A DNA stretch of 45,531 nucleotides from Spirochaetota bacterium (lineage in GTDB: Bacteria; Spirochaetota; Brachyspiria; Brachyspirales; JACRPF01): the NCBI GenBank assembly GCA_038043445.1, contig JBBTBY010000074.1:1-45531 (forward strand), read 5' to 3'. This document shows, piece after piece, positions 33,577-34,020 of this stretch. The translations under genes were made by a program, and so were the position numbers. The notes beneath the pieces were generated by a model. That model did not search any database. It was not told the DNA's origin and saw only the letters and a list, made by a program, of their open reading frames with translations. How positions within the stretch are numbered: the stretch's first letter is position 1; each line of letters begins with the position of its first letter.

Positions 33577-33741
33577 ATGCAGGAGCTCGTAAGCAATGGG
33601 ATCATCACGCGAGATCATCTTGAACGCGCGAAGCTGATACAGCGTCAGCGCGGCGGTACGCTCGGAGAGATCCTTGTCGAAATGGGAGCCGTCGATGTGA
33701 ACAAGTTCGTCGACTTCGTGAAAAAATATACCGGGCGCTGA
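33577..33741 (+). CDS. Mini-protein resembling an MshEN/GspE N-terminal domain, 54 aa
   Basis: A 54-codon gene with AAGGAG seven bases before the ATG, third in the fliW-csrA transcript. The protein is built as two similar turns: LVSNGIITRDHLERAKLIQR, then LGEILVEMGAVDVNKFVDFV. This [L-x-x-x-G-x-I/V-x-x-x-x-L] pattern with LGEILV is characteristic of the N-terminal domain of type II secretion/type IV pilus ATPases (GspE_N/MshEN), a domain that in some proteins binds c-di-GMP. Here no ATPase follows; the stop is at 33739-33741. It may be a stand-alone ligand sensor or adaptor linked to motility control. Not all MshEN c-di-GMP ligands are evident. Confidence 0.75.
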   Translation: MQELVSNGIITRDHLERAKLIQRQRGGTLGEILVEMGAVDVNKFVDFVKKYTGR

Positions 33742-33823
33742 TCGCAGAAAAAATATCCGTGCGCCGCAACCAGCATGCCGACCGTCCTTCCCGAAAAAAA
33801 ACGTAAAAAAAAGCGTTTGCCCC

Positions 33824-33852
33824 TTTACAAATCAGCGAAAAGGGTGTATACT
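33824..33852 (+). promoter_or_regulatory. Very strong promoter with UP-like A-tracts for the lysine-rich mini-gene
   Basis: TTTACA (33824-33829) and TATACT (33847-33852) are 17 bp apart. Two A8-type tracts (about 33793-33812) sit just upstream, where an UP element would lie. Predicted transcript start is near 33859. Confidence 0.8.
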
Positions 33853-33882
33853 GGGGTTAACATAATTTGAGGAGGGACGCCA

Positions 33883-33939
33883 ATGGCGACCAAGAAAAAG
33901 AAAAAAGCAAAAAAGACGACGAAGCGGAAAAAACGCTAG
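33883..33939 (+). CDS. 18-residue lysine-rich peptide
   Basis: An ATG with strong Shine-Dalgarno GGAGGG (33870-33875) opens an 18-codon frame: MATKKKKK, AKKTT, KRKKR, then TAG. Twelve of the 18 residues are Lys or Arg. A strong promoter lies about 24 bases before the Shine-Dalgarno region, and a GC-rich hairpin follows at 33966. It is therefore a complete transcription unit. The neighbouring gltX is on the other strand, so it cannot be a leader peptide for it. A nucleic-acid- or ribosome-binding peptide is a reasonable guess. The alternative is that the RNA itself is the product. Confidence 0.6.
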   Translation: MATKKKKKAKKTTKRKKR

Positions 33940-33965
33940 TTGCGAAGATCCGAAAAGGATCTCGC

Positions 33966-33993
33966 GGGGCGGTGCCGGTAACGGTTCCGCCCC
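33966..33993 (+). terminator. Probable terminator of the lysine-rich mini-gene
   Basis: GGGGCGG (33966-33972) pairs with CCGCCCC (33987-33993), with an inner CCG/CGG pairing, and is followed by GTTCTCGTTTATT. The T-run is weak. Because gltX ends at 34021 on the other strand, the hairpin could serve both directions. Confidence 0.55.
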
Positions 33994-34020
33994 GTTCTCG
34001 TTTATTGGCTATCGAATGGA

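Follow-up and report, generated by a model that had tools for sequence, protein, structure and literature searches.

An 18-codon stand-alone mini-gene for a lysine-rich, possibly histone H1-tail-like peptide in a spirochaete genome

RESULTS

The mini-gene and its surroundings

The window, i.e. the whole stretch of 45,531 nt that was analysed, carries a mini-gene on its + strand (33794-33993). It is located after fliW and csrA, both confirmed by Pfam, and a 54-aa ORF; the next gene, of the glutamyl-tRNA synthetase type (gltX), is convergent with it. The 54-aa ORF (MQELVSNGIITRDHLERAKLIQRQRGGTLGEILVEMGAVDVNKFVDFVKKYTGR; 33577-33741, + strand), found 3' of csrA, gave no match in a Pfam search; from its appearance, it may correspond to the N-terminal domain that type II secretion ATPases carry, here on its own.

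Direct reading confirmed the parts that the initial annotation had placed at 33824-33993: a promoter, a Shine-Dalgarno (SD) sequence, an 18-codon frame with 12 lysine or arginine codons and a GC-rich hairpin. The promoter is of the sigma-70 type (TTTACA-N17-TATACT): the -35 hexamer TTTACA (33824-33829, beginning ~59 nt from the ATG) and the -10 hexamer TATACT (33847-33852, ending ~30 nt from it) are separated by a 17-nt spacer, and UP-element-like A-tracts lie upstream of the -35 hexamer (33794-33801 and 33805-33812). A 21-nt leader, GTTAACATAATTTGAGGAGGG (33856-33876), ends in the SD sequence GGAGGG (33871-33876). The ORF (MATKKKKKAKKTTKRKKR) starts with the ATG at 33883 and its TAG stop ends at 33939. 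Lysine/alanine-rich and of low complexity on inspection, the peptide has K or R at 12 of its 18 positions and contains neither acidic nor aromatic residues nor proline. The hairpin reported after the stop is a GC-rich stem with a GNRA-type loop (GGGGCGGTGCCGGTAACGGTTCCGCCCC, 33966-33993) and is probably an intrinsic terminator; to this we add that a smaller hairpin (33942-33965) precedes it directly 3' of the stop and that the U-tract that follows it is weak (TTCTCGTTTATT). The mini-gene RNA has a folding energy of -59.3 kcal/mol (z = -5.2).

Two readings were dropped at this stage: that of a leader peptide or attenuator, because the gene that follows runs towards the unit, with a hairpin in between, and that of a membrane toxin, because the peptide has no hydrophobic segment.

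The unit is present as a single copy in its own genome. A promoter scan by itself performed at chance level (1 found versus 1.3 expected). As for the ORF, no second ATG frame of 12-40 codons on either strand of the window reaches 55% K/R. In 2.73 Mb of simulated sequence (second-order Markov), three such frames were found at 60% K/R if an SD was not required, and none with an SD. Since it is the sole frame of its kind in the window and the simulation gave none preceded by an SD, the window ORF is not due to chance.

The same unit in a second genus

The sole genome of the same family that was compared, G001, belongs to another genus and carries the promoter-to-hairpin unit once. There, the unit is flanked by a fucose-isomerase-like gene on one side and a gene for a hisH-like amidotransferase on the other, and gltX is on a different contig. 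The interval between csrA and gltX, where the initial annotation had proposed to look for relatives, is therefore not a conserved position, and a search confined to it would miss them; for the same reason, a functional linkage to CsrA or GltX was discarded.

From the -35 hexamer to the ATG, 49 of 59 positions (83%) are identical in the two genera, where the null gave 0.48 on average and 0.62 at most. The stretches TTTACAAATC at the -35 and TGTATACTG at the -10 hexamer and the 21-nt leader are fully identical, and the exact leader occurs once in each genome. Identity drops to the null level over the 60 nt further upstream; it is likewise at that level (44%) in the A-tract region, which is A-rich in both genera. 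The ORF is 70% identical, i.e. below the promoter and leader, and the G001 peptide (MATKKKATKKTKKTAKKKR) differs by an in-frame indel (net gain of three bases) that leaves the frame intact. On the 3' side, the first small hairpin was not seen in G001; the two units have in common a GC hairpin whose loop is of the GNRA type, GCAA in G001, and the tail TTTATTGG.

Because the parts are kept while the neighbouring genes differ, the unit behaves like a gene and not like the leader or attenuator of a neighbour. The comparison supports a selected protein-coding mini-gene, as judged from the two sequences; these are close and offer few synonymous sites, so that they give no rigorous estimate of selection on the peptide. 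With the block conserved in another genus and an ORF beyond chance, the stand-alone gene proposed initially is upheld, and we regard the unit as a real monocistronic gene whose product is a strongly cationic, presumably disordered peptide of 18 residues.

A DNA search of 61 relatives yielded, beyond G001, five weak matches confined to the A-rich coding part, and open-frame checks in these five gave no stand-alone gene. One leader-like site of G001 (L217, 2 mismatches) was rejected: the K-rich ORF is absent downstream.

Mini-genes in other spirochaetes

A strict pattern (SD followed by MA-x-KKK) was run over 393 spirochaete genomes. It revealed one further stand-alone mini-gene in each of three other families, with peptides of 14, 21 and 28 aa: MAAKKKAKKAKKKK in G032 (peptide and leader identical to L099; MAG labelled Brevinema andersonii), MAVKKKAKKKTAKKKTSKKKTSKKKKRR in G041 and MATKKKAKKGKKKGSKKSKRR in G063. 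All three possess an SD and an A/T-rich promoter region; the terminators of G032 and G041 are textbook examples, and in G063 a hairpin lies further downstream. Their DNA shows no recognisable similarity to the window unit. The remaining translatable matches were the starts of ordinary longer genes. Loose pattern scans of the same 393 genomes returned mostly off-frame matches or ordinary gene starts, and the candidates followed up were longer proteins, save an 11-mer (G157) and a 17-mer (G015). The Spirochaetota also hold longer KKA-repeat proteins with a similar start (97 and 163 aa), and HU-type genes are present in both the window genome and G001.

The check proposed initially, whether relatives keep the reading frame or only the RNA, comes out for the frame: G001 and the three distant spirochaetes all keep it K-rich, and an RNA-only alternative loses ground as a result.

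Profile searches

Pfam and NCBIfam profile searches were run on the relatives of at least 20 residues. The 21- and 28-aa spirochaete relatives gave no match in either library. A 52-aa member of the wider class described below reached E = 0.0037 (17.8 bits, for a cut-off of 40) against Pfam HC2 (PF07382). Rfam gave no match over the window at the gathering threshold, nor over 33780-34020 with E allowed up to 1. In the open-licence literature, H1-like proteins with long tails are described; an ultra-short stand-alone form was not found there. The initial statement that no known protein is recognised thus holds in that the short members are absent from Pfam and NCBIfam; it does not hold in so far as the peptide is not isolated, being part of a size-graded, lysine-rich, H1-like class.

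A wider class of lysine-rich mini-genes

A collection of 84,980 species genomes was scanned with a pattern that favours such ends, so that the counts are not frequencies. At least 80 loci were found, at least 43 of which have an SD followed in frame by a stand-alone K-rich ORF no longer than 40 aa. Among the matches listed, forms of at most 40 aa occur in Eisenbacteria, Acidobacteria, Chloroflexi, Omnitrophota, Nitrospirae, Gemmatimonadetes and DPANN archaea, as well as in several deltaproteobacterial groups, including Bdellovibrio relatives. The short ORFs grade, again among the matches listed, into KKA-repeat proteins of 50-190 aa that resemble H1-like tails (HC2, AlgP). A strict terminator within 110 nt 3' of the stop was present in 21 of 43 cases among the matches listed, versus 7% of segments drawn at random from these loci, an enrichment that does not depend on what the pattern selects for. 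The Eisenbacteria and Chloroflexi peptides are nearly or fully identical between MAGs; the synonymous versus non-synonymous comparison proposed initially, made on the Eisenbacteria set, gave a pS of 0-0.16 and a pN of 0.02-0.04 from too small a number of sites.

An archaeal peptide (L137, MAKKKKKAKKTTKKKKKKR) nearly equals that of the window, a near-match which, judged on sequence, suggests convergence. Homology of K-rich peptides is unprovable from composition, and the wider class may therefore be convergent rather than one family.

Three features of individual groups were also recorded. In Eisenbacteria, five loci (L098, L127, L132, L154 and L177) and, more weakly, L165 carry right after the stop a near-invariant element, TCTGGACCTGGCACGTCCTGAGG. 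It forms a small hairpin (GGAC/GUCC) followed by a variable terminator, the 5' side not being conserved; it has no Rfam match and is possibly a regulatory RNA element. Five gammaproteobacterial loci (L104, L107, L110, L142 and L157) are KKA-repeat genes of 55-120 aa with a conserved promoter/leader, CTATACT...CTCAGTGCTCAAC..GGAGGG, as in the spirochaete pair formed by the window and G001; expression signals seem to be the best-conserved part of this class of genes. Lastly, an Oligoflexia MAG (LJ_bin-4497) contains the same 21-aa peptide twice (MATKKKATKKAAPKKKTAKKK; L155 and L162) with different terminators, the copies being either paralogues or the product of a strain mixture.

DISCUSSION

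A peptide that may act through its charge

The reading that we favour, with a probability of about 0.55, is that the window peptide is a minimal, stand-alone, H1-tail-like peptide that binds nucleic acids through its charge and is probably nucleoid-associated. A nucleoid role is preferred because the composition is closest to that of H1-like tails (HC2, AlgP) and because the lysine/alanine-rich AlgP tail, and peptides derived from it, bind DNA (PMC9239181). The size continuum from mini-peptides to longer KKA-repeat proteins points the same way. Two observations count against it: conservation is higher in the leader than in the ORF, a pattern that a functional RNA would show too, and a polycationic peptide would bind any polyanion, rRNA and polyphosphate included. 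By its signals, the gene is probably well expressed. The strong promoter and ideal SD would provide many copies of the peptide, each of which would bind the nucleic-acid backbone electrostatically, whatever its sequence; by neutralising charge, the peptide could contribute, alongside the genome's own HU-type proteins, to compacting or protecting the nucleoid. The same charge could possibly serve to bind RNA, ribosomes or polyphosphate.

The main rival, which we hold to be unlikely, is a tiny ribosomal or ribosome-associated protein, comparable to bS22 or eL41, in which a short basic peptide sits in an rRNA pocket. It has precedents: Borrelia, also a spirochaete, has an unannotated bS22 with 61% Lys/Arg, found only by structure and translated search, and eL41 is a 24-residue helix (PMC10618245). 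Moreover, a gene of its own with a strong promoter and an ideal SD is what one would expect of a ribosomal protein made in large amounts. The peptides themselves argue otherwise. They are nearly pure K/A/T, vary in length and order even between sister genera and have only MA-x-KKK fixed, which is not what a peptide shaped to an rRNA pocket would show; their longer relatives are KKA repeats, and the 28-aa relative found no match among PDB chains at E up to 10. The bS22-type Pfam model COX24_C (PF08213) gave 0 matches in 5 carrier genomes, a result to be read with the fact that it matched only 1 of 14 control genomes.

Less likely still is a small RNA, or a dual-function RNA, in which the short ORF would be incidental or secondary. 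The excess of promoter and leader identity (83%) over that of the ORF (70%) would fit, as would the good fold of the transcript and the retention of the 3' hairpin. However, much of the fold energy is supplied by the terminator, the SD is near-ideal and Rfam is silent even at the permissive threshold. The K-rich frame is kept in G001 through an in-frame indel and in the other spirochaetes without RNA similarity.

We see little chance that this small polycation is meant for another target, such as polyphosphate or other granules, acidic proteins, or metal or polyanion buffering. AlgP, with its H1-like lysine-rich tail, does localise to polyphosphate granules and organises them (PMC9239181), but no polyphosphate or granule genes are linked to the mini-gene at the window locus or at that of G001, and nothing specific favours such a target. 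A chance ORF or pseudogene remnant, which the mere 18 codons and the chance-level promoter might have suggested, is close to refuted by the conservation of the block at another locus of another genus and by the empty simulation.

Extended to the class, the H1-tail-like reading becomes more tentative. Lysine-rich stand-alone genes of 12-40 aa, each with its own promoter, ideal SD and terminator, might make up a class of minimal proteins, nucleoid-associated or RNA-binding, that is widespread among bacteria and DPANN archaea and that annotation has essentially passed over; they would be among the smallest chromatin-type proteins, and repeat expansion would lead from them to the longer H1-like proteins. 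We consider this possible rather than probable. Since proteins this short and this simple are skipped by gene callers and profile libraries alike, genome annotations may lack an entire class of cationic peptides that are probably abundant. If these peptides bind DNA, they would represent the minimal form of the H1-like chromatin proteins, in which a bare polylysine-like tail was worth a gene of its own; if they bind ribosomes, they would join the small ribosomal proteins that had escaped notice until their recent discovery in a spirochaete.

Comparison with known systems

Nucleoid proteins of the HU/MDP1 type share with the window peptide a basic DNA-binding tail; the HU fold (PF00216) is impossible in a peptide of 18 residues in all. 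bS22 and eL41 resemble it in being very short, Lys/Arg-rich and missed by annotation; they have been described as defined helices whose contacts with rRNA are fixed, whereas the window class consists nearly only of K, A and T, in variable order and length. The chlamydial Hc2 protein (HC2, PF07382) and the NCBIfam family hist_H1_lk_Burk (NF038053) are, like the window peptide, lysine/alanine-rich, of low complexity and repeat-like. HC2-type proteins are about ten times longer: Hc2 itself has 165-237 aa, its size being set by the number of repeats (PMC2848022). The lysine-rich C-terminal domains of AlgP/AlgR3 and PhaF have the composition of a histone H1 tail, as does the window peptide. In AlgP and PhaF, however, this tail is KPAA-based and fused to an N-terminal domain, a layout not found at the window locus, where the 18-codon ORF has its own SD and promoter hexamers; here the tail, devoid of proline, is by itself the whole protein.
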